Under the pieces are notes generated by a model. That model ran no database searches and was not told the origin of the DNA. It saw only the letters and a program-made list of their open reading frames with translations. The translations under genes were made by a program, and so were the position numbers. DNA of 64,000 nt from Actinospineispora eucalypti. GTDB lineage: Bacteria > Actinomycetota > Actinomycetes > Mycobacteriales > Pseudonocardiaceae. The stretch is from assembly GCA_014208095.1 (NCBI GenBank), contig JACHMT010000002.1, positions 868,001-932,000 of the forward strand. Reading direction: 5' to 3'. Below, in pieces: positions 46,350 through 62,893 of this stretch. Each line of letters begins with the position of its first letter. Within the stretch, counting starts at the first letter, position 1.

Positions 46350-46793
46350 ATGGCCGAACTGGAACCGAGGAACTTCCTGCAGCCCTGTCTGCTGCTGTTG
46401 CTGTGTGAGACGCCGGACCACGGGTACGAGCTGGCGGCCCGGCTGCGCCCGATGCACGACGTGGACGGTGACGCCGGCGGGATCTACCGGGCGCTGCGTT
46501 CCCTGGAGCGCCAGGGGCTGGTGCGCTCCGAGTGGCACACCTCTTCGACCGGACCGGCCCGCCGCATCTACCGGGTCACCGACGCCGGCGTGCACGCGCT
46601 GGACGCCTCGGTGCACGGGCTGAACCAGACCCACGCCGCGCTGCACGTGTTCCTGGAACGCTACGGCCGGCTGGTGGCCTCCGACGGGCAGGGAGGAGGC
46701 AGGCATGGCGGTCGCACTCGGACCCGAGCACGCCTCGGCGGCGTTCGCTCGGCGGGACGCACCGACGGCCGGGTTGACCGAGACGGCGGCTGA
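46350..46793 (+). CDS. PadR-family regulator at the head of the hydrogenase locus
   Basis: 147 residues. PadR winged helix: LQPCLLLLLCETPDHGYELAARL, GGIYRALRSLERQGLVRSEW, RIYRVTDAG. The C-terminal ~35 residues (GQGGGRHGGRTRTRARLGG) are low-complexity, and their 89 bp overlap the next gene in another frame, so the original end may have been lost. PadR proteins are usually repressors relieved by a small molecule; as the first gene it is the best candidate regulator of hydrogenase expression. Confidence 0.78.
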   Translation: MAELEPRNFLQPCLLLLLCETPDHGYELAARLRPMHDVDGDAGGIYRALRSLERQGLVRSEWHTSSTGPARRIYRVTDAGVHALDASVHGLNQTHAALHVFLERYGRLVASDGQGGGRHGGRTRTRARLGGVRSAGRTDGRVDRDGG

Positions 46794-47250
46794 CCTGGCC
46801 CTGGCCTGCCACGCGATGGCGCGCCGGTTCCACCGGGGCGGCCGGCTGCTGGCCTTCGGCGCGGGCGCGGCCCGGGCGGACGCCGCGCACGTGGTGGTGG
46901 AGTTCGCGCATCCGGTGATCGTCGGCAAGCGCGCGCTGCCCGCGCTGGCGCTCGCCGAGCCCCGCTGGCTGCCGCTGTTCGCCGAGCCCCAGGACATCGC
47001 GCTGGGCCTGTGCGCGGACGGCCGGGACCCCGGGGTGTCCGAGGGACTGGCGCTCGGCCGGGACGCCGGGTTGCTCACCATCGCCCTGCTCGGCGGCGAC
47101 GGCGGCGCGATCGCCCGGCTGGACGGGCTGGACCACGTGCTGGTGGTGCCTTCGGCGGACCCGCGCATCGTGCGCGAGGCCCACGTGACGGCCTACCACG
47201 TGCTGTGGGAGCTCGTGCATGTGTTCCTCGACCAGCCGGGGGTGTTGTGA
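46705..47250 (+). CDS. SIS-domain protein, degenerate (hydrogenase locus)
   Basis: 181 residues resembling a phosphosugar-isomerase (SIS) fold, but the signature sites are altered: LAFGAGAARADAA replaces GNGGSxSDA and LGLCADGRDPGV replaces the STSG loop. The ending TAYHVLWELVHVFL matches the end of the second SIS gene here. Probably a non-catalytic partner of that protein. GGAGG precedes the ATG. Its stop overlaps the HypC-like start (TGATG). Confidence 0.78.
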   Translation: MAVALGPEHASAAFARRDAPTAGLTETAADLALACHAMARRFHRGGRLLAFGAGAARADAAHVVVEFAHPVIVGKRALPALALAEPRWLPLFAEPQDIALGLCADGRDPGVSEGLALGRDAGLLTIALLGGDGGAIARLDGLDHVLVVPSADPRIVREAHVTAYHVLWELVHVFLDQPGVL

Positions 47251-47465
47251 TGACCCCGGAGTGTGCGGGTCCGGAGTGCGTCACCTGCTCGGACGCGGCG
47301 GTGCCGGTCCGGGTCAGCCGGCTGCTGCCGGACGGGTTGGCGCTGGTGGAGGCGGCTCCCGGGCGGACCGAGGAGGTCTCGGTCGCGCTGGTCGACGCGG
47401 GCGTCGGGGACGTGGTGCTGGTCCACGCGGGCGAGGCGATCGCGGTGGTACCCGATGAGTCTTGA
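47250..47465 (+). CDS. Non-canonical HypC-like protein
   Basis: 71 residues with the HypC beta-barrel core (VPVRVSRLLPDGLALVEAAPG, VSVALVDAGVGDVVLVHAGEAIAVV) but no MCxGIP start. HypC needs its N-terminal Cys to bind the Fe(CN)2CO precursor and the large subunit. Instead it has a Cx4CxxC cluster (MTPECAGPECVTCSD). A canonical HypC is encoded at 59261, so this one likely does another job. Both neighbours are SIS proteins, and it overlaps each. Confidence 0.75.
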   Translation: MTPECAGPECVTCSDAAVPVRVSRLLPDGLALVEAAPGRTEEVSVALVDAGVGDVVLVHAGEAIAVVPDES

Positions 47466-48102
47466 GTCGCTGTACCCGTTCCTGCACGCCGGCCGGGCCG
47501 ACCTGGACGAGCTGCTCGCCGACGTGACCCGTTCCACCCGGGAGAAGGTCGAGGAGATCGGCCGGCTGCGGGCCGAGGTCGCCGCGACGGAGGCGGCCGA
47601 GCTGGCCCGGTGCGCCGAGGCAATGGCCGACCGGTTCGGCCGGGGCGGGCGGCTGTTCACCTTCGGCAACGGCGGGTCCAGCACCGACGCCGCCGGGCTG
47701 GCCATCCTGTTCACCGACCCGGGCGAGGGAGCGCGGCCGCTTCCGGCCACCGCGCTGGCCGAGGACGTGGCCACCCTGACCGCGCTGGCCAACGACGTGG
47801 GCTTCGAGGTGGTGTTCGCCCGGCCACTGGCCGCCGCCGGCCGCCCGGTGGACATCGCGCTCGGCCTGTCCACCAGCGGCGGGTCGGCCAACGTGCTGCG
47901 TGGGTTCGACGCGGCGCGCCGGCGCGGCATGCTCACCGTCGGGCTGGCCGGCTACACCGGCGGCCCGATGGCCGAGGTGGCGGCGCGCGGGGAGATCGAC
48001 CACCTGTTCGTCATGCCGTCCAGCTCGGTGCACCGCATCCAGGAGGCCCAGACCACCACGTACCACGTGCTGTGGGAGCTCGTGCAGCGAGCGCTCCGGT
48101 GA
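47455..48102 (+). CDS. SIS-domain phosphosugar isomerase-like (GmhA-type)
   Basis: 215 residues. Both functional loops are intact: LFTFGNGGSSTDAAGLAILF and LGLSTSGGSANVLRGF, as in D-sedoheptulose-7-phosphate isomerase. It ends PSSSVHRIQEAQTTTYHVLWELVQ, like its degenerate paralogue upstream. The biological link between a sugar-phosphate isomerase and [NiFe] hydrogenase is not established. It overlaps the HypC-like gene by 11 bp and hypF by GTGA. Confidence 0.83.
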   Translation: MSLESLYPFLHAGRADLDELLADVTRSTREKVEEIGRLRAEVAATEAAELARCAEAMADRFGRGGRLFTFGNGGSSTDAAGLAILFTDPGEGARPLPATALAEDVATLTALANDVGFEVVFARPLAAAGRPVDIALGLSTSGGSANVLRGFDAARRRGMLTVGLAGYTGGPMAEVAARGEIDHLFVMPSSSVHRIQEAQTTTYHVLWELVQRALR

Positions 48103-50372
48103 CCCACACGGTTCTGGCCCGCCGGCGTATCCGGGTGGGCGGGATCGTGCAGGGCGTCGGCTTCCGGCCGTTCGTGTACGCGCTGGCCCGCGAGTTCGGC
48201 CTGGCCGGGTTCGTGCGCAACGACGAGTCCGGCGTGCTGATCGAGGTGGAGGGCGACCCGGCGGCGCTCTCCGGGTTCACCGCCTCGGTGCCCACCCGGG
48301 CGCCCGCGCTGGCCGTGGTCGCCGAGGTGCGGGTGGACGACCTGCCACCCACCGCCGAGCCGGGTTTCCACATCCTGGCCAGCGCCGCCGGCGGCCGGCG
48401 CGGCGCGCTCATCTCGCCGGACACCGCCACCTGCGCGGATTGCCTCGCCGAGCTGGCCGACCCGGCCGACCGGCGCTACCGCTACCCGTTCGTCAACTGC
48501 ACCAACTGCGGCCCCCGGCTGACCATCGTGACCGGGGTGCCCTACGACCGGCGGTACACCACGATGGCCGGCTTCCCGATGTGCCGGGAGTGCGCCACCG
48601 AGTACCACGACCCCGCCGACCGGCGGTTCCACGCCCAACCGGTGTGCTGCCCGGCGTGCGGCCCGACCCTTCGGTGTACCGACCCCGCCGGCACATCCCT
48701 CGAGCCGGCCGGCGACCCGCTGGCCGCCGCCGTGGCCGCGTTGCGGGCCGGCGCGGTGCTGGCGGTGAAGGGCATCGGCGGCTACCACCTCGCCGCGCTG
48801 GCCCGCGACGAGCGAGCCGTGGCCGCGCTGCGCGCCCGCAAGCACCGGGAGGACAAGCCGTTCGCGCTGCTCGCCGCCGATCTCGCGGCGGCGCGGCGCC
48901 TGGTCGAGGTGGACGGGACGGCCGCCGCCGAGCTGACCTCCCGGCGGGCGCCGATCGTGCTGCTCCCCCGCCGCCCGGACGCCCCGGTGGCGCCCTCGGT
49001 CGCCCCCGGCAACCGCTACCTCGGCGTGCTGCTGCCCTACACCCCGCTGCATCACCTGCTGGCCGCCGACCTGGCCGAGCCGCTGGTGCTGACCAGTGGC
49101 AACGTCTCCGACGAGCCGATCGCCTACCGGGACGGCGAGGCCGCCGAACGGCTGGGCGGCATCGCCGACGGGCTGCTCACCCATGACCGGCCGATCCACA
49201 CGCGCGCGGACGACTCGGTGCTGCGGGTCACCGGCGGGCGGGTGCTGCCGATCCGCCGCTCGCGGGGTTACGCCCCGGAACCGCTGCCGCTGGCCACCCC
49301 GGCGCGCCGGCCCGTCCTGGGCTGCGGGGCCGAGCTGAAGAGCACGTTCTGCCTGGCCGAGGGCGGCCGGGCGTTCCTCTCCCACCACATCGGCGACCTG
49401 GAGAACGCGGAGACCCTGCGCTCGTTCACCGAGGGCATCGCGCACTACCGCACGCTGTTCGACATCACCCCCGAGGTGGTCGCGCACGACCTGCACCCGG
49501 AGTACCTGTCCACCAAGTACGCCCTGGAGCTGCCCGGCGTCCGGCTGGTCGGCGTGCAGCACCACCACGCGCACCTGGCCGCCTGCCTGGCGGACAACCG
49601 GGCCACCGGGCCGGTGATCGGGCTGGCCTGCGACGGCCTCGGCTACGGCACCGACGGCACCCTCTGGGGCGGCGAGCTGATGGAGGTCTCGATCACCGGC
49701 TTCCGCCGGCTGGCCCACCTGGAGACGGTGCCGCTGCCCGGCGGGGCGACCGCGATCCGTCAGCCCTGGCGGATGGCGGCGGCCTGGCTGCGCGCGGCCC
49801 ACCCGGACGGCGAGCTGGCCGACCTGGCCGTGGTGCGCCGCCAGGGTGCCCGTTGGACGCAGGTGGAACGGCTGCTCGGGTCGGACCTACCGGTCCCGCT
49901 GACCTCCAGCGTCGGCCGGCTGTTCGACGCGGTGGCCGCGCTGGCCGGGGTGCGGGACGAGGTGAACTACGAGGGCCAGGCCGCGGTGGAGCTGGAGCAG
50001 GCGGTCGACCCCGAGGTACGCGACGGCTACCCGATGCGGATGACCGACGCCGTGCTGTACGGCGCCGACCTGGTCCGGGGCGCGGTGCGCGACCTGCGCG
50101 CCGGACGGCCGGCCGGCACCATCGCCGCCCGCTTCCACCGCGGCCTCGCCGCCGGACTGGCCGAGGCGGCGGCCGGCGCCTGCGCCCGGACCGGACTGGA
50201 CACGGTGGCGCTGTCCGGCGGGGTGTTCCAGAACGTGACCCTGCTGCACGGCCTGCGGGACCGGCTCGACGGGTACGGGCTGAGGGTCCTGACGCACTCC
50301 CGGGTGCCGCCGAACGACGCCGGGATCAGCCTCGGACAGGTCACAGTGGCCGCCGCACTGGACCGAGCCTGA
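48099..50372 (+). CDS. hypF: HypF carbamoyltransferase
   Basis: 757 residues with the full HypF order: acylphosphatase-like domain (RIRVGGIVQGVGFRPFVYALAREF), zinc fingers (CADCLAELAD, CTNCGPRLT, CRECATEY, CCPACGP), YrdC-like domain (AVLAVKGIGGYHLA, LPYTPLHHLL) and Kae1-like carbamoylation domain (HHHAHLAACLADN, GLACDGLGYGTDG, VALSGGVFQN). It converts carbamoyl phosphate to the thiocarboxamide on HypE that becomes the CN ligands of the active-site Fe. The start overlaps the SIS gene (GTGA). Confidence 0.97.
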   Translation: MTHTVLARRRIRVGGIVQGVGFRPFVYALAREFGLAGFVRNDESGVLIEVEGDPAALSGFTASVPTRAPALAVVAEVRVDDLPPTAEPGFHILASAAGGRRGALISPDTATCADCLAELADPADRRYRYPFVNCTNCGPRLTIVTGVPYDRRYTTMAGFPMCRECATEYHDPADRRFHAQPVCCPACGPTLRCTDPAGTSLEPAGDPLAAAVAALRAGAVLAVKGIGGYHLAALARDERAVAALRARKHREDKPFALLAADLAAARRLVEVDGTAAAELTSRRAPIVLLPRRPDAPVAPSVAPGNRYLGVLLPYTPLHHLLAADLAEPLVLTSGNVSDEPIAYRDGEAAERLGGIADGLLTHDRPIHTRADDSVLRVTGGRVLPIRRSRGYAPEPLPLATPARRPVLGCGAELKSTFCLAEGGRAFLSHHIGDLENAETLRSFTEGIAHYRTLFDITPEVVAHDLHPEYLSTKYALELPGVRLVGVQHHHAHLAACLADNRATGPVIGLACDGLGYGTDGTLWGGELMEVSITGFRRLAHLETVPLPGGATAIRQPWRMAAAWLRAAHPDGELADLAVVRRQGARWTQVERLLGSDLPVPLTSSVGRLFDAVAALAGVRDEVNYEGQAAVELEQAVDPEVRDGYPMRMTDAVLYGADLVRGAVRDLRAGRPAGTIAARFHRGLAAGLAEAAAGACARTGLDTVALSGGVFQNVTLLHGLRDRLDGYGLRVLTHSRVPPNDAGISLGQVTVAAALDRA

Positions 50373-50418: not shown

Positions 50419-51033
50419 ATGCGGTATCTAGACTGGACCAGCTGGACACCTGGACGGCCCGACACCGGTCAGGTCGATGAGTGCACCCGCGAGCGGGCGG
50501 TTCTGAAGATCTACACCGCCCGGCTCTCCGAGGAGGAGCGCTGCCATCGCGCCTTCCGCGCGGTGGAGCTGGAGCGGGTGGCCACCGAGACCCGTCGCGC
50601 CGCGTCCACGGTGATCCACGACGCGATCGAGGGCTCGGCCGCCGAAGCGCCGGCCGCCCTCTACCGGCTGGTCGCCAACACCCGGCTGGCCGTCACCATC
50701 GCGGCGCTGAACCTGATGGGCATCGAGACCCTCCTGCCCGGCGAGCCACCCTTCCACGCGCCGCGCGAGCTGATCGACGCCACCCGGATCTACCTGCGCG
50801 AACCCCCCGGCGACGGCCACGGTTCCGGCGGTTCGGACGGCCTGGACGCGCTGAGCGGGCTGATCGGCGACTTCCACCGGTCCACCGTGTTCATCAACGG
50901 GCTGCGCATCGAGCCGCGCCGCCTGCCCGCCGTCGTGCCGCTGACCCTGCGCGCCGCCCATCCGGCGATCATGGTGGCGTTCGGCGAGTTCCTCGCGCAC
51001 AAGTACGTCATCGAAGGCTGGAGCCTGCTCTGA
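50419..51033 (+). CDS. Unknown 204-residue protein in hydrogenase locus
   Basis: Unrecognised. Helical, Ala/Arg/Glu-rich (RAVELERVATETRRAASTVIHDAIEG, AALYRLVANTRLAVTIAALNLMG) with a Gly/Ser spacer (GHGSGGSDG) before the final third (LPAVVPLTLRAAHPAIMVAFGEFLAHKY). No membrane segment or Cys motif. It has its own CGGAG ribosome site and a 46-bp gap from hypF, so it may start a new transcript. Possibly a hydrogenase-locus-specific factor. Confidence 0.6.
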   Translation: MRYLDWTSWTPGRPDTGQVDECTRERAVLKIYTARLSEEERCHRAFRAVELERVATETRRAASTVIHDAIEGSAAEAPAALYRLVANTRLAVTIAALNLMGIETLLPGEPPFHAPRELIDATRIYLREPPGDGHGSGGSDGLDALSGLIGDFHRSTVFINGLRIEPRRLPAVVPLTLRAAHPAIMVAFGEFLAHKYVIEGWSLL

Positions 51034-51092
51034 CCGAAGCCCAGACGGTTCAGTAGTTGCTTTATTCAGCTGTCGCTGTACTGTTTGGCGTT

Positions 51093-51422
51093 GTGGAGAC
51101 ATTGACGCACGGGGAGGTGCTGGCTCGGTTCGGGCACGCACTCTCCGACCCGATCCGGTCCCGGCTGCTGCTGGCGCTGCGCGAGGCCCCGGGTTATCCG
51201 GCCGAGTTGGCGGAGCTGCTGGGCACCTCCCGGCAGAACCTGTCCAACCACCTGTCGTGCCTGCGTGGGTGTGGGCTGGTGGTGGCGGTGCCCGAGGGTC
51301 GGCGGCTGCGGTACGAGCTGGCCGATGCCCGGCTGGCTCACGCGCTCGGCGACCTGCTCGGCGTCGTGCTGACCGTCGACCCGGCCTGTTGCCCGTCCGC
51401 CGACGAAGCCGGGTACTGCTGA
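51093..51422 (+). CDS. cmtR: ArsR-family metal sensor (CmtR-type)
   Basis: 109 residues. LGTSRQNLSNHLSCLRGCGLVVAV is nearly identical in pattern to mycobacterial CmtR, where the two Cys (C-x3-C spacing) bind Cd/Pb, and the C-terminal DPACCPSADEAGYC gives further thiols. It should repress its own operon until metal binds. GTG start with TACTGT 8 nt upstream. Directly coupled (TGATG) to the CDF transporter. It lies inside the hydrogenase locus. Confidence 0.85.
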   Translation: METLTHGEVLARFGHALSDPIRSRLLLALREAPGYPAELAELLGTSRQNLSNHLSCLRGCGLVVAVPEGRRLRYELADARLAHALGDLLGVVLTVDPACCPSADEAGYC

Positions 51423-52051
51423 TGGCCGCCCCGGTCTCGGCCGCCCGCCGGACCCAGCTGGCGATTCGTATCCGGTGGCTGGTCGCGGCCACGATCACCT
51501 ACAACGTGATCGAGGCGGTCGTGGCGATCAGCGCCGGCACACTCGCCTCCTCGACCGCGTTGATCGGGTTCGGGTTGGACTCGGTGATCGAGGTGTCCTC
51601 GGCGGCCGCCGTGGCCTGGCAGTTCGCCGGCGCCGACCCGGAACGGCGGGAGCGGACGGCGCTCCGGGTCATCGCGGTGTCCTTCTTCGCGCTCGCCGGT
51701 TACGTCACCGTGGAGTCGGTGCGTGCGCTGCTGGGCGCCGAACGCGCCGAGCACTCCACCGTCGGCCTGGTGCTGGCCGCGCTGTCGCTGCTGGTCATGC
51801 CGGTGCTGTCGGCCGCGCAGCGCCGCGCCGGCCGGGAGCTGGGCTCGACCAGCGCGGTCGCCGACTCCAAACAGACCCTGCTGTGCACCTACCTCTCCGG
51901 GGTGTTGCTGGTCGGGCTCGGCCTGAACAGCCTGTTCGGCTGGTGGTGGGCCGACCCGGCCGCCGCGCTGGTCATCGCGGCCGTCGCGGTCAAGGAGGGG
52001 CGCGAGGCCTGGCGAGGCGAGGCCTGCTGCGCATCGGAGGGCTGCTCATGA
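51422..52051 (+). CDS. Cation diffusion facilitator-like metal exporter
   Basis: 209 residues. Six helices (WLVAATITYNVIEAVVAISAG, STALIGFGLDSVIEVSSAAAVAWQF, then ALSLLVMPVLSAAQRRAG, TLLCTYLSGVLLVGLGLNSLFG and WWADPAAALVIAAVAVKEG). The Asp of the metal site in helix II is present (GFGLDSVIE), in helix V a Cys replaces an usual His (LLCTYLS), and the C-terminus is CCASEGC. It probably exports Cd, Zn, Co or Ni under CmtR control. Confidence 0.85.
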   Translation: MAAPVSAARRTQLAIRIRWLVAATITYNVIEAVVAISAGTLASSTALIGFGLDSVIEVSSAAAVAWQFAGADPERRERTALRVIAVSFFALAGYVTVESVRALLGAERAEHSTVGLVLAALSLLVMPVLSAAQRRAGRELGSTSAVADSKQTLLCTYLSGVLLVGLGLNSLFGWWWADPAAALVIAAVAVKEGREAWRGEACCASEGCS

Positions 52052-52334: not shown

Positions 52335-53384
52335 ATGTCCTCCGCGACCGAGCAGGAAGCGCCCACCGTCCATATCCTCTGGATCAACGCCGGACTCAGC
52401 TGCGACGGTGACTCGGTGGCCCTCACGGCGGCCACCCAACCCAGCATCGAGGAGATCGCGCTCGGCGCGCTCCCCGGGCTGCCCAAGATCGCCGTGCACT
52501 GGCCGCTGATCGACTTCGAGTGCGGGCCGGATGTCGGCGCGGACACCTTCATCGAGTGGTTCTTCAAGGCCGACCGGGGCGAGCTGGAGCCGTTCGTGCT
52601 GGTCGTGGAGGGGTCGATCCCGAACGAGAAGATCAAGCAGGAGGGGTACTGGTGCGGGTTCGGGAACAACCCGGACACCAACCAGCCGATGACCACCAGC
52701 GAGTGGCTGGACCGGCTGGCGCCCAAGGCGCTGGTGGTGCTCGCGGTGGGCACGTGCGCCACCTACGGCGGCATCCACGCCATGTCGGGCAACCCCACCG
52801 GCGCCATGGGCGTCGCCGACTACCTGGGCTGGAGCTGGAAGTCCAAGGCCGGCATCCCGATCGTGAACGTGCCGGGCTGCCCGGTACACCCGGACAACCT
52901 GTCCGAGACCATCCTCTACCTGCTCTACCAGGCCACCGGCGCCGCGCCGATGATCCCGCTGGACGAAGCCGGGCGGCCCAAGTGGCTGTTCGGCTCCACC
53001 GTGCACGAGGGTTGTGACCGGGGCGGTTACTACGAGCAGGGCGAGTTCGCCAGCGAGTACGGGCAGCCCACCTGCCTGGTGAAGCTGGGCTGCTGGGGTC
53101 CGGTGGTCAAGTGCAACGTGCCGAAACGGGGCTGGATCAACGGCGTCGGCGGCTGCCCGAACGTGGGCGGCATCTGCATCGGCTGCACCATGCCGGGCTT
53201 CCCGGACAAGTTCATGCCGTTCATGGACGCGCCGCCGGGCAGCAAGGTCTCCGGCGCGGCCAGTGGGGCCTACGGATCCGTGATCCGCCGGCTGCGCAAC
53301 ATCACCTTGAAGAGCGTCGACTCCGAACCCAAGTGGCGCACCAAGGGCGCCGAGCTGACCACCGGTTACCGGAAGTCCTGGTAG
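52335..53384 (+). CDS. hhyS: [NiFe] hydrogenase group 1h small subunit
   Basis: 349 residues. Cluster ligands: proximal set around NAGLSCDGDS, VGTCATYGG and GCPVHPDN (C23, C141, C182); medial and distal sets in TVHEGCDRGGYYEQ, TCLVKLGCWGPVVKCN and GGCPNVGGICIGCTMPGFPDKF. No Tat signal or C-terminal anchor, as expected for the group 1h enzyme, which is thought to sit on the cytoplasmic side. It passes electrons from H2 toward the respiratory chain. GAGGAAGG lies 9 nt before the ATG. Confidence 0.95.
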   Translation: MSSATEQEAPTVHILWINAGLSCDGDSVALTAATQPSIEEIALGALPGLPKIAVHWPLIDFECGPDVGADTFIEWFFKADRGELEPFVLVVEGSIPNEKIKQEGYWCGFGNNPDTNQPMTTSEWLDRLAPKALVVLAVGTCATYGGIHAMSGNPTGAMGVADYLGWSWKSKAGIPIVNVPGCPVHPDNLSETILYLLYQATGAAPMIPLDEAGRPKWLFGSTVHEGCDRGGYYEQGEFASEYGQPTCLVKLGCWGPVVKCNVPKRGWINGVGGCPNVGGICIGCTMPGFPDKFMPFMDAPPGSKVSGAASGAYGSVIRRLRNITLKSVDSEPKWRTKGAELTTGYRKSW

Positions 53385-53397: not shown

Positions 53398-55182
53398 ATG
53401 ACCGCCACCGAAGCCTCCGTCCCGTCCACCGAACAGTCCAAGCTGGTGGAGATGGCCTGGGACCCGATCACCCGGATCGTGGGCAGCCTGGGCATCTACG
53501 CGAAGATCGACTGGGCGGCCAAGCGGGTCGTGGAGTGCCACTCCACGTCGTCCATCTTCCGCGGCTACTCGATCTTCATGAAGGGCAAGGACCCGCGCGA
53601 CGCGCACTTCATCACCAGCCGGATCTGCGGCATCTGCGGGGACAACCACGCCACCTGCTCGGTCTACAACCAGAACATGGCCTACGGGGTCCGCCCGCCG
53701 CACCTGGGTGAGTGGATCATCAACCTGGGCGAGGCCGCCGAGTACATGTTCGACCACAACATCTTCCAGGAGAACCTGGTCGGGGTGGACTACTGCGAGA
53801 AGATGGTCGCGGAGACCAACCCCGGCGTGCTGGAGCAGGCCAACCGCACCGAGGCGCCGCACGCGGCCGACCATGGCTACAAGTACATCGGCGACATCAT
53901 GCGCGCCCTGAACCCGTTCTCCGGCGAGTTCTACCGGGAGGCGCTGCAGGTCAGCCGGTACACCCGGGAGATGTTCTGCCTGATGGAGGGGCGCCACGTG
54001 CACCCCTCCACGCTGTACCCGGGCGGGGTCGGCACGGTGGCCACGCACCAGCTGTTCACCGACTACTACACCCGGCTGATGCGCTACGTGGAGTTCATGA
54101 AGCGCGTGGTGCCGCTGCACGACGACCTGTTCGACTTCTTCTACACCGCGCTGCCCGGCTACGAGCGGGTCGGCTACCGGCGCACCATGCTGGGCTGCTG
54201 GGGCTCGCTGAACGACCCCGAGCACTGCGACTTCACCTACCAGAACATGTCCGACTGGGGCCGGCGGATGTTCGTCACCCCCGGCGTGGTGGTGGACGGC
54301 CGGCTGGTCACCACGGACCTGGTGGACATCAACCTGGGCATCCGGATCCTGCTCGGCAGCTCGTACTACCGGGACTGGGAAGACCAGGAGATGTTCGTGA
54401 CCCGCGACCCGCTGGGCAACCAGGTGGACCGCCGGCACCCGTGGAACCAGCACACCATCCCGGCGCCGCAGAAGCGGGACTTCGAGGACAAGTACTCCTG
54501 GACGATGTCGCCGCGCTGGTTCGACGGCACCGACTACCTGCCGCTGGACACCGGCGGCGGCCCGCTGGCCCGGTTGTGGACGACCGCGCTGGCCGGGCTG
54601 GTGAACACCCCGTACGTGCGGGCCACCGGGCACAGCGTGCGGATCGACCTGCCGCGCACCGCGACCAAGCCCGAGGTCAGCTTCGAGTGGAAGATCCCGC
54701 AATGGTCCAACGCCATCGAGCGCAACCGGGCCAGGACCTACTTCCAGGCCTACTCGGCCGGGTTGGCGCTGCACTTCGTGGAGCAGGCGCTGGCCGAGGT
54801 GCGCGCCGGGCACAGCAAGACCTGGGAGAAGTTCACCGTGCCCGACGAGGCGATCAGCTGCGGTTTCACCGAGGCGGTTCGCGGGGTGCTTTCCCACCAC
54901 ATGGTCATCCGGGGCGGCAAGATCGCCAACTACCACCCGTACCCGCCGACGCCCTGGAACGGCAGCGTGCGGGACGTGTACGGCACACCCGGTCCCTATG
55001 AGGACGCGGTGCAGAACACGCCGATCTTCGAGGAGAACAGCCAGGAGAACTTCAAGGGGATCGACATCATGCGCGCGGTGCGCAGCTTCGACCCGTGCCT
55101 GCCCTGCGGCGTGCACATGTACAAGGGCGACGGCAAACCGCTGCACGTGATGCACTCCCCCGCGATGCTCAACCAGTTCTGA
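53398..55182 (+). CDS. hhyL: [NiFe] hydrogenase group 1h large subunit
   Basis: 594 residues. Active-site motifs: RICGICGDNHATC (C77, C80) and DPCLPCGVHMY (C567, C570), which hold Ni and Fe(CN)2CO. H573 is followed by a 21-residue tail (KGDGKPLHVMHSPAMLNQF), the peptide normally removed by the maturation protease. The RICGICGDNHATC form is characteristic of group 1h. It should oxidise H2 at atmospheric levels. 13 bp after hhyS. Confidence 0.96.
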   Translation: MTATEASVPSTEQSKLVEMAWDPITRIVGSLGIYAKIDWAAKRVVECHSTSSIFRGYSIFMKGKDPRDAHFITSRICGICGDNHATCSVYNQNMAYGVRPPHLGEWIINLGEAAEYMFDHNIFQENLVGVDYCEKMVAETNPGVLEQANRTEAPHAADHGYKYIGDIMRALNPFSGEFYREALQVSRYTREMFCLMEGRHVHPSTLYPGGVGTVATHQLFTDYYTRLMRYVEFMKRVVPLHDDLFDFFYTALPGYERVGYRRTMLGCWGSLNDPEHCDFTYQNMSDWGRRMFVTPGVVVDGRLVTTDLVDINLGIRILLGSSYYRDWEDQEMFVTRDPLGNQVDRRHPWNQHTIPAPQKRDFEDKYSWTMSPRWFDGTDYLPLDTGGGPLARLWTTALAGLVNTPYVRATGHSVRIDLPRTATKPEVSFEWKIPQWSNAIERNRARTYFQAYSAGLALHFVEQALAEVRAGHSKTWEKFTVPDEAISCGFTEAVRGVLSHHMVIRGGKIANYHPYPPTPWNGSVRDVYGTPGPYEDAVQNTPIFEENSQENFKGIDIMRAVRSFDPCLPCGVHMYKGDGKPLHVMHSPAMLNQF

Positions 55183-55697
55183 TGACGGCACCGGATCCCG
55201 CCGGTCTGGCCGCCCGGATCGACGCGGTGCTGGTGGAGGTGGCGGCCCGCGCGGGTGAACCGGCGAGGGCCGCCGTGGAGGACCTGGTCCGCGACCTGAT
55301 GCGGTTCTACGGGTCCGGCCTGGCGCGGATGGTGGAGACCATGGAGGCCGGGGCCGGCCCCGACCTGGTGCACCGGGTCGCGGCCGACCCGGTGGTCGGC
55401 GGGCTGCTGGCGCTGCACGACCTGCACCCGGTCGAGCTGTCCACCCGGCTGCGGCACGCGCTGGAGAACGCGCGCCGCCGGCTGGGCAACCACGGCACCG
55501 GCATCGAGCTGACCGGGGTGGACGGCGACGGCATGGTCCGGGTGCGCATCCCGGCCGGCTGCGGCGCGGACACCGTGCGGGACGTGGTGGAGGCGGCGGT
55601 CACCGAACTGGCCCCGGACACCGAGGGCGTCGTGTTCGACACCGCGCCGGCCCTGCTCACCATCGGCATGCGGCCCTCGGTCGGGACCCCGCCGTGA
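55182..55697 (+). CDS. NifU-like protein (hydrogenase locus)
   Basis: 171 residues. The C-terminal half resembles a NifU domain (VELSTRLRHALENARRRLGNHGTGIELTGVDGDG) but the expected CxxC is reduced to a single Cys in IPAGCGADTVRDVV. It may deliver or hold an Fe-S cluster or interact with it rather than build it. TGATG coupling to hhyL implies stoichiometric production; NifU-like proteins are regular partners of this hydrogenase class. Confidence 0.8.
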   Translation: MTAPDPAGLAARIDAVLVEVAARAGEPARAAVEDLVRDLMRFYGSGLARMVETMEAGAGPDLVHRVAADPVVGGLLALHDLHPVELSTRLRHALENARRRLGNHGTGIELTGVDGDGMVRVRIPAGCGADTVRDVVEAAVTELAPDTEGVVFDTAPALLTIGMRPSVGTPP

Positions 55698-56302
55698 CCC
55701 GCTCACTGCGCAGGCTGTTGCGGGAGCCTCGGGTGGCGCCCCAGGAGCGCTGCGAGCTGTGCGCCACCCCGGTGGGCGGCGAGCACCCGCACCTGGTGGA
55801 GGTCCACGAGCGGCGGCTGTTGTGCGCGTGTCAGGCGTGCGCGCTGCTGTTCAGCGAGCCGGGGCCGAAGCTGCGCTACCGACGGGTGCCGGACCGGTAC
55901 CTGGTGGACCCGGAGTTCGAGCTGTCCGACGCGCAGTGGGACGCCCTGCGCATCCCGGTGGGCATGGCCTTCTTCCTGCGCAACTCCGCCCGGGAAGCCC
56001 TGATCGCCTGCTACCCGAGCCCGGCCGGGGCCACGGAGAGCGAGCTGCCGCTGGAGGCCTGGGCGGACGGGGTCGGCGCCGGCCCGCTGGCCGCCGAGCT
56101 CACCCCGGACGTGGAGGCGCTGCTGGTGCGCCGGGGTGACGGGGTGCGGCCGGAGTGCCTGCTGGTACCGATCGACGCCTGCTACCGGCTGGTCGGCCTG
56201 GTCCGGCTGCACTGGAAGGGGTTCGACGGCGGCGCCGAGGCGTGGGCCGCCATCGACGCGTTCTTCGACGAGGCGCGTTCCCGCGCACGAACGGTGTCCT
56301 GA
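55694..56302 (+). CDS. DUF5947-family protein
   Basis: 202 residues. A CxxC pair (RCELCATPV) and a second (LCACQACALLF) form a rubredoxin-like zinc or iron site in the first 50 residues. The remainder (YLVDPEFELSDAQWDALRIPVGMAFFLRN, LVPIDACYRLVGLVRLHWKGFDGG) matches DUF5947. Function unknown; the family is found next to group 1h hydrogenases. A metal site suggests electron transfer or assembly. GTGA overlap at the start. Confidence 0.8.
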   Translation: MTRSLRRLLREPRVAPQERCELCATPVGGEHPHLVEVHERRLLCACQACALLFSEPGPKLRYRRVPDRYLVDPEFELSDAQWDALRIPVGMAFFLRNSAREALIACYPSPAGATESELPLEAWADGVGAGPLAAELTPDVEALLVRRGDGVRPECLLVPIDACYRLVGLVRLHWKGFDGGAEAWAAIDAFFDEARSRARTVS

Positions 56303-56928
56303 TGCCCCGGTTCGCCTGCCTGGACGCCCGCCCCGACCTCCGCTCGGCCGGCCCCGGCATGCTGCTCGACCTGCGCATCACGGTGGACCCGGGGCAACGG
56401 GTGCACAGCCTGGCCCTGCGCACCCAGATCCGCATCGAACCCCGTCGCCGCCGCTATACCCCGGCCGAGGCGGAGCAGCTGGTCGACCTGTTCGGGGAGC
56501 TGCCCCGGTGGGGCGAGACGCTGCACCCGCTCCAACTGTGCACGGTGTCCACGATGGTCACCGGGTTCGCCGGGCAGACCACCACCGAGGTGTCCGTACC
56601 GCTCAGCTACGACATCGACGTGGCGGCCACCCGCTACCTGCACGGCCTGGACGACGGTGACGTGCCGTTGTTGCTGTTGTTCTCCGGCACGGTGTTCTAC
56701 GCCGGGCCGGAGGGCGTGCAGGTGGGGCTGGTGTCCTGGTCGGAGGAGGCCACGTTCCGGCTGCCGGTGGCCATCTGGCGGGCCGCGATGGACGCGCACT
56801 TCCCCGGCACCGCCTGGCTGCGGCTGCGCCGGGAGACGCTGGACGCCCTGCTCGCCTACCGGTCCGCGCACGCGATTCCGAGCTGGGACGACGTGCTGCA
56901 CCGGCTGCTCAAGGACGCCCGGCCATGA
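56302..56928 (+). CDS. DUF6084-family protein
   Basis: 208 residues. LDARPDLRSAGPGMLLDLRITVDPGQRVHSLALRTQIRIEPRRRRYTP suggests a beta-rich N-half; LPLSYDIDVAATRYLHGLDDGDVPLLLLFSGTVFY follows; WRAAMDAHFPGTAWLRLRRETLDALLAYR ends it. No Cys motif or membrane segment. DUF6084 accompanies DUF5947 in these loci, and the coupled starts imply a complex. Role unknown. Confidence 0.78.
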   Translation: MPRFACLDARPDLRSAGPGMLLDLRITVDPGQRVHSLALRTQIRIEPRRRRYTPAEAEQLVDLFGELPRWGETLHPLQLCTVSTMVTGFAGQTTTEVSVPLSYDIDVAATRYLHGLDDGDVPLLLLFSGTVFYAGPEGVQVGLVSWSEEATFRLPVAIWRAAMDAHFPGTAWLRLRRETLDALLAYRSAHAIPSWDDVLHRLLKDARP

Positions 56929-58253
56929 CCGCCCTGGATGAGCTGGCCCGGGTGGCGGACGCGGTCCTGTTCGAGGGTTACCTGCTCTACCCGTACCGGG
57001 CGTCGGCGCAGAAGAACCGGCTGCGCTGGCAGTTCGGCGTGCTGGTCCCGCCCGGGTACGCCGAGGAGTCCGGCGAGGCGGCGGCGAACCGCACCGAGTG
57101 CCTGCTGGAGGCCGGGCCGGCGACCGCGCTGCACGTGCGGCTGCGTTTCCTGCGGCTGCGCGCGCGTTCGGTCTACGACGCCGACGGCCGCCCGATCGAC
57201 CACCTGGTGGTGGACGGCACGCGGGTGTTCGCGTGGGAAGAAGGGCAGCCGGCGACGGTGGACGCGGTGGTCGCGGTCGGCGAGCTACTCGCCGGACCCC
57301 GGGCCGTGTCGTTCGCCCTGTCGGCGGACCTGGAGGTGGAACCGGTGGCGGGCGGGTCGGTGCACCGCCGCTGCTGGCCGCTGGCCGGCCGGCTGGTGCT
57401 CTCCGCGACCGAGCTGCCCGGCCCGTACGGGGCGCTGCGCCTGCGCCTGGACGTGCTCAACGACTCGCAGTGCCCGCCGGAGGCCCGCCGCGAGGAGGCG
57501 CTGCGCACCTCACTGATCGCCGCGCACTCGCTGCTGTCGCTGGATGCCGGTTCGTTCCTTTCCCCCACCGACCCGCCGGAATGGGCAAAGCCGGCCACCG
57601 CCGAGCTGACCAACGAGCACACCTGGCCGGTGCTCGGCGGTCCGGAGGACCGCTCCGACCTCCTGCTGTCCAGCCCGATCATCCTGGCCGACCACCCCCG
57701 GCTGGCCCCGGAGAGCCCGACCGACCTGTTCGACGGGACCGAGATCGACGAGATCCTCAGCCTCCGCACCCTGGTCCTCACCGACGAGGAGAAGGCCGAG
57801 GCCCGGGCCACCGACCCGAAGGCGGCCGCCGTGATCGACGCGGTGGACGGCATGCCGCCGGAGATCTGGGAGCGGCTGCACGGCGCCGTCCGTTCGCTCG
57901 GTCCTTCCCGGACCGACCCGACCGAGGTGCCGCCCTGGGAGCAACCCGAGGTGCCCTGGTGGGACCCGGGCGTCGACGAGTCGGTGTCCCCGGAGACCGA
58001 CTCGGTGCTGGTCGGCTCGGTCCAGGTGCGCAAGGGCGTCGCGGTGCGGCTGCGCCCGCGCGGCGGCGGGGACGCGCAGGACACGTTCCTGGTCGGCCTG
58101 CGCGCCACCGTGCAGGCGGTGCTGCACGACGTGGACGGCGAGGTGCACGTTGCCGTGTCGCTGGACGACGACCCGGCCGCCGAGTTGCAGCTGGCGCACG
58201 GCCGGTACCGCTACTTCCGCCCCGACGAGCTGGAACCGGTGCGGGTGTCATGA
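56925..58253 (+). CDS. Conserved-locus 442-residue protein, function unknown
   Basis: No recognised family. N-terminal half: LFEGYLLYPYRASAQKNRLRWQFGVLVPPGYAEE, then beta-rich segments. Middle: an Asp/Glu/Pro-rich acidic linker (PTDLFDGTEIDEILSLRTLVLTDEEKAEARATDP, then PPWEQPEVPWWDPG). The C-terminus returns to a compact beta domain. No membrane helix, no Cys motif. Its ATGA overlap with DUF6084 and with the protease gene places it in the maturation operon; a scaffold for large-subunit assembly is a possibility only. Confidence 0.72.
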   Translation: MTALDELARVADAVLFEGYLLYPYRASAQKNRLRWQFGVLVPPGYAEESGEAAANRTECLLEAGPATALHVRLRFLRLRARSVYDADGRPIDHLVVDGTRVFAWEEGQPATVDAVVAVGELLAGPRAVSFALSADLEVEPVAGGSVHRRCWPLAGRLVLSATELPGPYGALRLRLDVLNDSQCPPEARREEALRTSLIAAHSLLSLDAGSFLSPTDPPEWAKPATAELTNEHTWPVLGGPEDRSDLLLSSPIILADHPRLAPESPTDLFDGTEIDEILSLRTLVLTDEEKAEARATDPKAAAVIDAVDGMPPEIWERLHGAVRSLGPSRTDPTEVPPWEQPEVPWWDPGVDESVSPETDSVLVGSVQVRKGVAVRLRPRGGGDAQDTFLVGLRATVQAVLHDVDGEVHVAVSLDDDPAAELQLAHGRYRYFRPDELEPVRVS

Positions 58254-58753
58254 GGGACCGGGTGCTGGTGGCGGGCATCGGAAACGTGTTCCTCTCCGAC
58301 GACGGTTTCGGCGTGGCCCTGGCCAACCGGCTGGCCGGCACCGAACTGCCGCCCGGGGTGGAGGTGCGGGACATCGGCATCCGGGGGATGCACCTGGCCT
58401 ACCAGCTGCTGGACGGCTACCGGGTCCTGGTGCTGCTGGACACCGCACAGCGCGGCGGAGGGCCGGGCTCGCTCTACCTGCTCGAACACGACCTGGACCA
58501 ACCCGCCGACCCCGGGGCGCTGGGTTTCAACGCGCACGGGATGGACCCGGCATCGGTGCTGGCCATGCTGGACCAGCTGGCCGAGGGCAACGGACTGGAC
58601 CGGCCGATCGAACGCGCGCTGGTGCTGGCCTGCGAACCCTCGAGCCTGGACGAGGGACTGGAGCTGTCCGAGCCGGTGGCGGCGGCGGTGGAGCGCGCCC
58701 TGCCGGTGCTGCTGGACCTGCTGCGCGAGCTGACCGGAGCCCCGGTCCGATGA
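58250..58753 (+). CDS. Hydrogenase maturation protease
   Basis: 167 residues of the HybD/HycI family: VLVAGIGNVFLSDDGFGVALANRL starts with the metal-binding Asp/Glu region, VRDIGIRGMHLAYQLLDGYRVLVLLDTAQ gives the second ligand site and FNAHGMDPASVLAML the last His. It cuts the C-terminal peptide from HhyL after Ni insertion. One protease gene fits the single large subunit here. Confidence 0.9.
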   Translation: MRDRVLVAGIGNVFLSDDGFGVALANRLAGTELPPGVEVRDIGIRGMHLAYQLLDGYRVLVLLDTAQRGGGPGSLYLLEHDLDQPADPGALGFNAHGMDPASVLAMLDQLAEGNGLDRPIERALVLACEPSSLDEGLELSEPVAAAVERALPVLLDLLRELTGAPVR

Positions 58754-59256
58754 CCCGCTACAAGATCGTGCCGGGGCGCTGCGAACTGGCCGCGCAGGCC
58801 AGCTCCAGCCTGCACCCGATCCGCGCGGAGGCCAGCGAGCTGGCCGGCGAGATCGACGTCGAGCTGGCCGACGGGGTGCTCGATCCCACCGCGCCCACCG
58901 GCGCGCGTATCGAGCTGGCCACCGCCGCGCTGCACTCGGGAAACCCGCTGCTCGACCGGGAGATCCAGGGCCGGCTGGACGCCCGCCGCTACCCCAGGGT
59001 GGCCGCGTGGGTGCGCGAGGTGACCGGCCCGACGGACGGCGCGTACGACGTGCACGGGGAGCTGACCCTGCGGCACGTCACCCGGCCGGTGACCGCCCGG
59101 GCCACGCTGGTCTCGGGCGACCGGCGGTTTCTCGAGGTCAACGGGGCTTTCACCCTCGACGTACGGGACTTCCAGCTGGACCCGCCGAAGCTGCTCGGCC
59201 TGCGGGTGCACCCGGAGGTGGCGGTGACGGTGCGGATCGTGGCGGAACGGAGTTGA
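58750..59256 (+). CDS. YceI-like protein
   Basis: 168 residues, lipocalin-like beta-barrel: IELATAALHSGNPLLDREIQGRLDARRYPRVAAWVREV matches the YceI core and GELTLRHVTRPVTARATL the repeat strand. No signal peptide, so unlike most YceI proteins it is cytoplasmic. YceI barrels bind isoprenoids or quinones; binding menaquinone or another lipid near the hydrogenase is a reasonable guess. Confidence 0.75.
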   Translation: MTRYKIVPGRCELAAQASSSLHPIRAEASELAGEIDVELADGVLDPTAPTGARIELATAALHSGNPLLDREIQGRLDARRYPRVAAWVREVTGPTDGAYDVHGELTLRHVTRPVTARATLVSGDRRFLEVNGAFTLDVRDFQLDPPKLLGLRVHPEVAVTVRIVAERS

Positions 59257-59260: not shown

Positions 59261-59536
59261 ATGTGCCTCGGAATTCCCGGTGAGATCGTGGCCCTGCTGG
59301 CCGAGCACGAGGACCTGGCGATGGTCAGCGTGGAGGGCGTGCGGCGGGCGGTGAACATCGGCCTGATCCGCGAGGAGGTCGAGCTGCATCCCGGTGACTG
59401 GGTGCTGATCCACGTCGGGTTCGCCCTCTCCAAGATCGACGAAGCGGAGGCGAAGGCGTCCCTGGAGTGGCTGACCGGGGTCGGCGACGCCTACACCGAC
59501 GAGCTCACCGCGCTCGCTTCCAGCGACATCACGTAA
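59261..59536 (+). CDS. hypC: HypC chaperone
   Basis: 91 residues, canonical start MCLGIPGEIVALLAEHEDLAMVSVEGVRRAVNIGLI. The Cys at position 2 carries the Fe(CN)2CO precursor and passes it to the large subunit with HypD. VQPGDWVLIHVGFALSKIDEAEA-like core present. GGAG precedes the ATG. hypD follows 13 bp downstream. Confidence 0.96.
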   Translation: MCLGIPGEIVALLAEHEDLAMVSVEGVRRAVNIGLIREEVELHPGDWVLIHVGFALSKIDEAEAKASLEWLTGVGDAYTDELTALASSDIT

Positions 59537-59549
59537 AGGGGGCAATCCG

Positions 59550-60677
59550 ATGAGGTTCGTCGACGAGTTCCGCGACGCCGGCGCCGCCCGGGCGCTGGCC
59601 ACCCGCATCGCCGCGCTGTGCGAGCCGGGGCGGCACTACAAGTTCATGGAGGTGTGCGGCGGGCACACGCACACCATCTACAAGCACGGCCTCGAGGACT
59701 ACCTGCCGGAGACGGTCTCCCTGGTGCACGGCCCGGGATGCCCGGTGTGCGTGATCCCGATGGGCCGGGTGGACGACGCCATCGCCATCGCCGAGCGGGA
59801 CGACGTGATCATGACGTCGTTCGGCGACATGATGCGGGTACCCGGCGGGCGCGGCTCGTTCTTCGACTCCAAGGCGGCCGGCGCGGACATCCGGATGGTG
59901 TACTCGCCGCTGGACGCGCTCAAGATCGCCCGGAAGAACCCGGACAAGCGGGTGGTCTTCATGGCCATCGGCTTCGAGACCACCGCCCCGTCCACCGCGA
60001 TGACCGTGCTCCGCGCGGCCGCCGAGGGGCTGGACAACTTCTCCATCTTCTGCAACCACGTCACGATCATCCCGGCGATCAAGGCGATCCTGGACTCCCC
60101 CGACCTGCGGCTGGACGGGTTCCTCGGACCGGGCCACGTGTCCACGGTGATCGGCTGCCGGCCCTACGAGTTCATCGCCCGCGACCACGGCAAGCCTCTC
60201 GTCTGCGCCGGGTTCGAGCCGCTGGACATCCTGGCCTCGGTGCACCGGCTGCTGGTGCAGCTGCACGAGGGCCGGTGCGAGGTGGAGAACCAGTACGCCC
60301 GGGTGGTGCCCTGGGACGGCAACCTGAAGGCGCTCCAGGTGATCGGCGAGGTGATGGAGCTGCGCCCGCACTTCGAGTGGCGCGGCCTCGGTTTCATCTC
60401 CCACTCGGCGTTGCGGGTCAGAGCCGCCTACAGCGCCTTCGATGCGGAGCGGATCTTCGACGTGCCCGGGGTGCGGGTGGCCGACCCCAAGGCCTGCCAG
60501 TGCGGCGAGGTGCTCAAGGGCGTGCTCAAACCGTGGGAGTGCAAGGTGTTCGGCACCGCGTGCACCCCGGAGACCCCGATCGGCACCTGCATGGTCTCGT
60601 CCGAGGGCGCCTGCGCGGCCTACTACAACTTCGGCCGGTTCACCCGGGACCGGGTGAAGGAGGCGACCCGCCTGTGA
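59550..60677 (+). CDS. hypD: HypD
   Basis: 375 residues. CGGHTHTIYKHG (Cys for the Fe ligand complex), HGPGCPVCVIPMGRVDDA, and GFETTAPSTAMTV are the three HypD blocks. The C-terminal Cys set (CQCGEVLKGVLKPWECKVFGTACTPETPIGTCMVSSEGAC) binds a [4Fe-4S] cluster. Together with HypC and HypE it builds the Fe(CN)2CO centre. RBS AAAGGGGG before the ATG. Confidence 0.96.
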   Translation: MRFVDEFRDAGAARALATRIAALCEPGRHYKFMEVCGGHTHTIYKHGLEDYLPETVSLVHGPGCPVCVIPMGRVDDAIAIAERDDVIMTSFGDMMRVPGGRGSFFDSKAAGADIRMVYSPLDALKIARKNPDKRVVFMAIGFETTAPSTAMTVLRAAAEGLDNFSIFCNHVTIIPAIKAILDSPDLRLDGFLGPGHVSTVIGCRPYEFIARDHGKPLVCAGFEPLDILASVHRLLVQLHEGRCEVENQYARVVPWDGNLKALQVIGEVMELRPHFEWRGLGFISHSALRVRAAYSAFDAERIFDVPGVRVADPKACQCGEVLKGVLKPWECKVFGTACTPETPIGTCMVSSEGACAAYYNFGRFTRDRVKEATRL

Positions 60678-61807
60678 GCACCGCGAACTGGGCCGAGGAG
60701 GCGGTGCGGGCGCACTCCGGGGCGGAGCACCTGACCCGCGAGGAGCAGGTGCTGGAGCGCATCGCCCGGGCGCGGGCCCGCAAGGCCCGCATCCGGGAGG
60801 AGCGGATCACCCTCTCGCACGGCGCCGGCGGCAAAGCCACCCACACGTTGATCGAGGCGGTCTTCCTGGAGGCGTTCCGCAACCCGCTGCTGGAGCCGTT
60901 GGAGGACGGCGCCTCGGTGGCGGTCGGCGCGGAGCGGCTGGCGTTCACCACGGACTCCTTCGTGGTGTCCCCGCTGTTCTTCCCCGGCGGCGACATCGGG
61001 GACCTCGCGGTGAACGGCACCGTCAACGACCTGGCCATGTGTGGCGCCCGGCCGCTGCACCTGTCCTGCGGCTTCATCCTGGAGGAGGGCTTCCCGGTCG
61101 CCGACCTGCAGCGCATCGTGGCCTCCATGGCCGGGGCGGCGCGCGCGGCCGGGGTGCGGATCGTCACCGGCGACACCAAGGTGGTGGAGCGCGGCAAGGC
61201 GGACGGCTGCTACATCACCACGGCCGGGGTCGGGCGGCTGGACCGGCCGTTCGCGCTGTCGGCGGCCGCGGTGCGCCCGGGCGACACCGTGCTGGTGTCC
61301 GGGCCGATCGGCGACCACGGCATCACGGTGATGCTGGCCCGGGGCGAGCTGGATCTCATCGCGGACGAACTGCGCTCGGACACCGCCCCGCTGCACGAGA
61401 TCACCGCCGGCCTGCTGGACGCCGCCGGTGACGGGGTGCGCATGCTGCGCGACGCCACCCGGGGCGGGGTGGCGACCATCTGCAACGAGGTGGCCACGGC
61501 GGCCGGTGTGGCGGTGGTGCTGGACGAGCGTTCCGTCCCGGTGCGGCCGGTGGTCACCGGGGCGGCCGAGCTGCTGGGCATCGACCCGCTGTACGTGGCC
61601 TGCGAGGGCCGGCTGGTCGCGGTGGTCGCGCCCGAGCGGGCGGACGCCGCGCTGGCCGCGCTGCGCGGCCACCCGCTGGGCGAGGGCGCGGCGGTGATCG
61701 GCACGGTGCGCGACGACCCGCCCGGGCTGGTGCTGCTGCGCACCGCGTTCGGCGGCACCCGGATCGTGGACCTGCTGGTCGGCGACCCGTTGCCCCGGAT
61801 CTGCTGA
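60674..61807 (+). CDS. hypE: HypE
   Basis: 377 residues with an N-terminal extension of about 45 residues (AVRAHSGAEHLTREEQVL) before ITLSHGAGGKATHTLIEAVF. Core: FTTDSFVVSPLFFPGGDIGDLAVNGTVNDLAMCGARP. It ends PRIC, the Cys that receives the carbamoyl group from HypF and becomes thiocyanate. GTGA overlap with hypD. Confidence 0.96.
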   Translation: MSTANWAEEAVRAHSGAEHLTREEQVLERIARARARKARIREERITLSHGAGGKATHTLIEAVFLEAFRNPLLEPLEDGASVAVGAERLAFTTDSFVVSPLFFPGGDIGDLAVNGTVNDLAMCGARPLHLSCGFILEEGFPVADLQRIVASMAGAARAAGVRIVTGDTKVVERGKADGCYITTAGVGRLDRPFALSAAAVRPGDTVLVSGPIGDHGITVMLARGELDLIADELRSDTAPLHEITAGLLDAAGDGVRMLRDATRGGVATICNEVATAAGVAVVLDERSVPVRPVVTGAAELLGIDPLYVACEGRLVAVVAPERADAALAALRGHPLGEGAAVIGTVRDDPPGLVLLRTAFGGTRIVDLLVGDPLPRIC

Positions 61808-61814
61808 GCGCCCG

Positions 61815-62144
61815 ATGCACGAGCTGGCGATCACCGAGAGCATCGTGGCCGCGGTCACCGAGCGGCTGCCGGACACCCGGATCCGGGTGCTGTGGGTGGA
61901 GATCGGCCGGCTGTCCGGGGTGGTGCCGGACGCGGTCCGGTTCTGCTTCGACCTGGTCGTCGCCGGCACCCCGCTGGAGGGTGCCCGGCTGGAGATCGAC
62001 GAACCGGCCGGGCGGGTGCACTGCCGGAGCTGCGCGGCGGAGTTCGACACCGACCAGGTGCTCGCGCTGTGCGCATGCGGCAGCGCGGACGTCCATCCGC
62101 TGCGCGGCACCGAGCTGTGCGTCCGTCAGGTGGAGGTGGTCTGA
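61815..62144 (+). CDS. hypA: HypA nickel chaperone
   Basis: 109 residues. [11 protein letters not shown] is the Ni-binding start (His2, Glu3). The zinc site is CRSC and CACG ([25 protein letters not shown]), with CxC spacing at the second pair rather than CxxC. It loads Ni into HhyL with HypB. Confidence 0.95.
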
Positions 62145-62146
62145 AC

Positions 62147-62893
62147 ATGTGCGGGACCTGCGGCTGCGGCGACGGCACCGCCGCCCGGATCATCGACTTC
62201 GACCACGGGCACGGCCACGAACACACCCATTCGCGAACCGTGTCCCTGGAGGTCGACCTCCTGGCCAAGAACGACGAGCTGGCCGCGGCCAACCGCGCCT
62301 GGCTGGCCGACCGGGGGATCTTCGCGGTCAACCTGATGAGCTCCCCCGGCGCCGGCAAGACCACGCTGCTGGAACGGACCGTGCGCGAGCTGGCCGGGCG
62401 GGTGCCCGTCGCCGTGCTGGAGGGCGACCAGGAGACCGCGCTGGACGCGGCCCGGATCCGCGCGACCGGCTGCCGGGTGGTGCAGGTGAACACCGGCGCC
62501 GGGTGCCACCTGGACGCACAGATGGTGCGCCGGGGCCTGGACACGCTGCGCCCGCCGGACGGGTCGCTGGTGTTCATCGAGAACGTCGGGAACCTGGTCT
62601 GCCCCGCGCTGTTCGACCTCGGCGAGTCGGCCCGGGTAGTGATCGCCTCGGTCACCGAGGGCGCGGACAAACCGCTGAAGTACCCGCACATGTTCCGCGC
62701 GGCCCAGCTGCTGCTGATCAACAAGGTCGACCTGCTGCCGTACGTGGACTTCGATCCCGAGGAATGCACGGCCGCCGCGCGGCGGGCCAACCCGGCCGTG
62801 GAGGTGGTGCGGACGTCCGCCACCACGGGCGACGGGCTGCATTCCTGGCTCGAGTGGCTGGACCGGCGACGATCGCGCTGTGCAACGGGGTAA
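62147..62893 (+). CDS. hypB: HypB nickel-insertion GTPase
   Basis: 248 residues. N-terminus [10 protein letters not shown] (Ni-binding CGxCGC-type) followed by a short His-rich stretch ([11 protein letters not shown]). GTPase: [49 protein letters not shown]. The His tract suggests a Ni-storage role as in other actinomycete HypB. The start is 2 bp after hypA. Confidence 0.96.

Follow-up and report, generated by a model that had tools for sequence, protein, structure and literature searches.

Among the described systems comparable with the locus considered here, the AH (HofKG) operon on plasmid pHG1 of Cupriavidus necator H16 has PHG064-070 and the hyp genes in the order small subunit, large subunit, NifU-like, DUF5947, DUF6084, unknown protein, peptidase and hyp, with a SIS gene. 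A 2015 paper lists PHG066-069 of this operon as "proteins of unknown function" (PMC4377017), and a 2025 paper still describes the four coding sequences beside hhyL in this way (PMC12319191). By gene order, PHG066-069 are of the NifU-like, DUF5947, DUF6084 and 442-residue types. In the Hhy region of Mycobacterium smegmatis (MSMEG_2713-2722) the NifU-like protein, HhyE, is essential for Hhy activity and nitroblue tetrazolium cannot substitute for it (PMC6883350), and a microarray table gives values close to one another for MSMEG_2713-2719 and the gmhA-named MSMEG_2706 (PMC5445863). A term search of the main text of the Huc structure paper finds no mention of HucE (PMC10017518). The present locus occupies positions 46350-62893 of a 64,000-nucleotide stretch of Actinospineispora eucalypti DNA (the window; contig JACHMT010000002.1), and the genes given individual coordinates below lie on its + strand. 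It belongs to a largely known, real and conserved operon type. A first-pass annotation had put it forward as the best candidate in the window for an undescribed system, which the C. necator operon and the correspondence of the NifU-like protein to HhyE contradict; its interpretation is partly supported. What is new is the frequent loss of CxxC motifs in HhyE, set against a nearly invariant DUF5947 site, and the usual company of the 442-residue protein with the peptidase.

Judged by its sequence, the enzyme is a group 1h high-affinity [NiFe]-hydrogenase. HhyL (53398-55182) is 78% identical to C. necator HofG and HhyS (52335-53384) is 69% identical to HofK, identities that place the enzyme in group 1h (Hhy/AH), and PDB entry 5aa5, which holds HofK, is the top match for HhyS and stands far above the other PDB matches. 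Both the L1 and L2 CxxC motifs of HhyL are there (RICGICGDNH and DPCLPCGVH). In HhyS, CxxD replaces the first CxxC (SCDGDS versus GCDGDS in HofK), and presumably corresponds to the Asp-ligated proximal cluster. No Tat signal or anchor was noticed by eye in HhyS. The closest relatives by HhyL, HypD and the 442-residue protein are mostly from Pseudonocardia.

The large subunit gene is followed by the genes for a short HhyE-type NifU-like protein (55182-55697; equal in position to PHG066 by gene order), a DUF5947 protein consisting of a CxxC-HxH-CxCxxC site and a C-terminal domain (55694-56302; PF19372, 245 bits), a DUF6084 protein (56302-56928; PF19562, 271 bits), the 442-residue protein of PHG069 type by order (56925-58253), a HycI-type hydrogenase maturation peptidase (58250-58753; PF01750, TIGR00072) and a YceI-like protein (58750-59256; PF04264, 53.6 bits). 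Each junction from hhyL through the YceI-like gene, read from the sequence, is an overlap: 1 nt for hhyL/NifU-like (TGATG), 4 nt for NifU-like/DUF5947 (GTGA), 1 nt for DUF5947/DUF6084, and 4 nt for DUF6084/442-residue (ATGA), 442-residue/peptidase and peptidase/YceI-like, with a 4-bp gap between the YceI-like gene and hypC. The chain of overlapping accessory genes that the first-pass annotation had described between hhyL and hypC is confirmed; the five genes it named are all in the chain, and the peptidase gene between the 442-residue and YceI-like genes was left out.

The conservation of this block was followed in 396 genomes of the phylum, with HhyL cut at 63% identity or more and fragments included (the next matches are at 45% or less). 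HhyL was found in 42 genomes, DUF5947 in 38 and DUF6084 in 37, and HhyL is also in 36 of the 38 DUF5947 genomes and 33 of the 37 DUF6084 genomes. In the exceptions (G189 and G371 for both families, G216 and G290 for DUF6084) the contigs end before hhyL. A second DUF6084/DUF5947 pair in G264 (contig C296) lies outside the fetched loci. Among 27 genome loci (from L074-L120) with a full hhyL and at least 5.5 kb downstream, scored for presence in the locus and not for order, the NifU-like, DUF5947 and 442-residue genes are each present in 27, the peptidase gene in 25 and the DUF6084 gene in 24. In a wider set of 132 loci, the order NifU-like, DUF5947, DUF6084, 442-residue, peptidase is found on one strand in 88 of the 96 loci that have 6 kb of sequence after hhyL, a count inflated by nine rearranged loci that fall outside it (L136, L143, L145, L194, L157, L179, L191, L195, L201) and by the fetching of 80 of the 132 with the 442-residue protein. 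In L136, L143, L145 and L194 the 442-residue and peptidase genes are in a divergent operon with hypCDEAB, and hhySL-NifU-DUF5947-DUF6084 remain together. HhyE and DUF5947, plus DUF6084 in most loci, remain with hhySL. Four of the five accessory genes named earlier belong to the operon type; the YceI-like gene does not belong to it. Two short large-subunit profile matches (profile positions 1-68) with equal scores, L003 (G000:C1:3300454-3300657) and L004 (G000:C7:127978-128181), lie in frames of about 1,100 residues. L115 (G107:C7:209649-229648), from a genome scored 100% complete, has a 122-residue hhyL match that is 72% identical, with no accessory gene found nearby, and is perhaps a decayed Hhy locus.

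What do these accessory proteins do? We consider it fairly probable that they form an assembly cassette rather than an electron-carrier chain. The NifU-like protein of the window, directly after hhyL, matches PF01106 at 21 bits, below the 27-bit cut-off. It has a single cysteine overall and neither the NifU CxxC nor the C-terminal CxxC pair, whereas mycobacterial HhyE has both motif sets (PMC6883350; L006). Among 112 scorable loci, 64 encode an HhyE that has no CxxC at all, and both the window and C. necator belong to these 64. On the HhyL tree, a quick tree with many weak branches, the NifU CxxC is gone in 66 of 109 HhyE rows with 11 changes at the fewest, and the C-terminal pair in 78 of 109 with 12. 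The counterpart in C. necator, a species with a solved enzyme structure (HofK, 5aa5), has neither motif. Among the coding sequences beside hhyL, one without a recognisable NifU domain has been noted (PMC12319191). The failure of the dye to replace HhyE in M. smegmatis fits what is expected of an assembly factor.

The Cys/His signature of DUF5947, C..C-HxH-CxC..C, is kept in 120 of 121 proteins, the one that differs being truncated where its contig stops, and the CxxC pair reported there earlier is borne out. A near-invariant, metal-type signature in an accessory protein is also what would be expected if DUF5947 (PHG067 by order; MSMEG_2717) were the direct electron acceptor, a rubredoxin-like iron site from which electrons would enter the respiratory chain, HhyE and DUF6084 serving as adaptors. 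MSMEG_2717 resembles PHG067, for which, according to PMC6883350, Schafer 2013 put forward an electron-acceptor role. We think this explanation unlikely. DUF5947 as a fusion of HybE/HupJ with rubredoxin was also considered, and there was no profile match to the single C. necator HoxT and HoxR sequences. A fold search with DUF5947 gave weak matches only, and neither HybE nor rubredoxin was among the 24 matches listed.

It has been suggested that HhyE itself accepts the electrons, by way of iron-sulfur clusters bound to its NifU-like and rubredoxin-like portions. This reading is favoured in PMC6883350, where the knockout abolishes activity, native gels are cited on which HhyL, HhyS and HhyE co-localise, and electron transfer is called the most plausible role. 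However, HhyE has neither CxxC motif in most of the scorable loci, among them those of the window and of C. necator, and we regard the suggestion as very improbable. The YceI-like protein of the window, at its start, shows no signal peptide by eye. That its barrel carries menaquinone to the soluble enzyme, as CoxG reportedly does for CO dehydrogenase, is likewise very improbable: despite the YceI family match, the 4-nt overlap with the peptidase gene and the apparent lack of export signals on it and on HhyS, the gene is in 3 of 132 loci (a profile built from two of the three positive loci, which distant YceI proteins may escape), its pattern takes 3 separate changes when mapped on the tree of HhyL, and a second YceI gene elsewhere in the genome matches the family better (104 versus 53 bits). 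Such rarity means that the YceI-like gene is no general link to the respiratory chain, a role that the first-pass annotation had suggested as possible.

Returning to the assembly cassette, several observations weigh against it. The co-localisation and the role preferred in PMC6883350 have been mentioned. Neither DUF5947, DUF6084 nor the 442-residue protein has similarity to C. necator HoxO, HoxQ, HoxR, HoxT or HoxV (profiles against single sequences), so the case for assembly comes from gene order, motif loss and the published knockout. One clade, of 8 loci, has no DUF6084, and the family is absent genome-wide from G128, G171 and G369. In L101, L102, L103 and L201 the 442-residue gene is upstream of hhyS and away from the peptidase gene, and in L153 and L176 there is no same-strand peptidase after it. 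Streptomycetaceae and Pseudonocardiaceae are abundant among the 132 loci, and the presence of the 442-residue protein in the 80 loci fetched is by construction because it was the fetching query. The Hox/Hup helpers (HoxO, HoxQ, HoxR, HoxT/HybE, HoxV) likewise form a hydrogenase-specific block between structural and hyp genes, but they have no detectable sequence relation to the three proteins.

The 442-residue protein has no match in Pfam or NCBIfam. In 12 loci its relatives have the N-terminal part of about 333 residues and the C-terminal part of about 105 in separate reading frames. The gene usually adjoins the peptidase gene, and in the four split loci it travels with the peptidase and hyp genes. 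On balance the protein looks, from its neighbours, like a maturation factor.

DUF6084 is predicted to be a beta-sandwich followed by C-terminal helices. A SecB-type fold is unsupported, since hhalign scored one E. coli SecB sequence at 13.0, whereas the 5 best of 30 shuffles reached 15.8-19.2, and SecB is absent from the 50 matches listed in a fold search. PDB sequence searches with alignments A1, A2 and A3 found nothing below E 0.35. When every member of alignment A4 (91) and of A5, the alignment of the 442-residue protein (93), was scanned against Pfam, the matches besides DUF6084 were weak and shared by few members, the best being DUF1376 (0.0092, 1 member) and Phage_TAC_7 (0.0014, 8 members). 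Among 30 listed papers, of 34 matched in an open-access literature search, none names DUF5947 and one, on aurodox biosynthesis, names DUF6084. Nine genomes with HhyL are without DUF6084: G128, G171 and G369 are complete, in G227, G299 and G317 the locus runs into a contig edge, and G107, G130 and G184 have only internal hhyL pieces. A separate HhyL clade (L101, L102, L103, L157, L179, L191, L195, L201) is without DUF6084 and carries the 442-residue gene upstream of hhyS. In the loci that lack DUF6084 its profile finds nothing at E 10, and no plausible replacement is seen among the largest gene clusters listed.

Taken together, the locus would encode a group 1h high-affinity hydrogenase and a dedicated biogenesis cassette. 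HhyE may be a scaffold that needs no Fe-S motif of its own and, with the metal-site protein DUF5947, may help to place or protect the HhyS clusters under air. DUF6084 would be a partner or chaperone, dispensed with in one clade, and the 442-residue protein would be a large-subunit chaperone working beside the C-terminal peptidase. The YceI-like gene would be a late, local addition. Electron exit from HhyS to the respiratory chain need not involve any accessory protein.

The remaining genes flank this block. Upstream are the genes for a PadR-family regulator (46350-46793; PF03551, 61.6 bits), the SIS-domain protein SISa (46705-47250; PF13580, 27.5 bits, cut-off 27), the small HypC-like protein HypC2 (47250-47465; PF01455, 42.2 bits), a second SIS-domain protein, SISb (47455-48102; PF13580, 57.4 bits), and the HypF carbamoyltransferase (48099-50372; Pfam scan). 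Downstream are HypC (59261-59536), HypD (59550-60677) and HypA (61815-62144), assigned by Pfam scan, HypE (60674-61807; AIRS domains and position) between HypD and HypA, and HypB last (62147-62893; sequence and position only), with relatives in 80 of the 132 loci by a profile built from the window gene. The region had been taken as one coupled run, but it is interrupted between hypF and hhyS (50419-52051) by the genes for a 204-residue orphan, an ArsR regulator and a cation-efflux protein of the CDF type. These three have no match in any other of the 132 loci at E 1e-6; a weaker search gave an ArsR-type match in L082, on the opposite strand. The trio is possibly a metal control module. The C. 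necator operon has neither this insertion nor a YceI-like gene, and has one SIS gene instead of SIS-HypC2-SIS.

The SIS-HypC2-SIS genes deserve separate comment. SISb is GmhA/DiaA-like and lacks the active-site metal His and Glu of GmhA, the PDB-aligned positions being Gly, Leu and Gln; we take the GmhA positions to be the catalytic metal-binding residues. An N-terminal Met-Cys is typical of HypC; HypC2 starts MTPECAGPECVTCSD and does not have it, and a C-[ILV]-[TV]-C motif was read by eye in its relatives. By frame lengths and scores, five loci appear to carry a SISa-HypC2 fusion, and others a fusion of two SIS domains. HypX, the aerobic CO-ligand synthase, serves hydrogenases made under oxygen (PMC12134894). 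It sits in hyp operons next to hypE, whereas the window has SIS-HypC2-SIS instead, and HypX has no match at E 1e-30 in the window genome (9.6 Mb assembly, 97.5% complete, 6.7% contamination). In 90 loci of at least 15 kb with hypF, HypX only is found in 29, SIS only in 34, both in 0 and neither in 27 (Fisher 2e-8, which ignores kinship). Genome-wide, 34 Hhy genomes gave HypX in 6, SIS (E 1e-38 or better) in 26, both in 1 (G086) and neither in 3. These last three, G182, G038 and G008 (L077, L081, L082), showed no HypX and no SIS of hydrogenase type at the cut-offs applied, and another CO source may serve them. Another 67 genomes, each holding a [NiFe] large subunit or DUF6084, gave 0 matches to the HypX query, which does find matches in Hhy genomes, and SIS in 16, none of which, by reading, holds only a distant (26-36% identical) large subunit.

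From this distribution, the SIS genes may be a substitute for HypX, although the exclusion is confounded by lineage. Among named rows HypX is found only in Streptomycetaceae, SIS tracks a single side of the tree of HypD, and when kinship is taken into account the test has only 3 contrasts (p = 1). Among plasmids (47 HypX records; 30 of 49 SIS records listed), HypX and SIS share a replicon in at least 9 records, seven from Bradyrhizobium and two from C. necator H16. The two shared-replicon plasmids inspected have separate hyp operons, with HypX after hypE and SIS between hypC and hypD. SIS also lies in hyp operons on plasmids of Thermus, Afipia, Sphingopyxis and Mesorhizobium huakuii 7653R, none of which appears in the list of 47 HypX records. 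SIS is already listed among [NiFe]-hydrogenase neighbours in PMC12727194, where HypX is not named in the available text. It is a doubtful proposal that SIS-HypC2-SIS is a second, oxygen-compatible supply or hand-over of the CO ligand of the [NiFe] cofactor in aerobes without HypX. In this proposal the SIS proteins, which keep the sugar-phosphate loop but have lost the GmhA metal ligands, would act with the Cys-rich HypC2 on HypD and have a phosphorylated metabolite as their ligand.

As a find the operon is ordinary, and its value is that two open questions are sharpened. Motif loss in HhyE, together with the nearly invariant site of DUF5947, makes the choice between assembly factor and electron acceptor directly testable, in a group of enzymes that share in the soil uptake of atmospheric H2.
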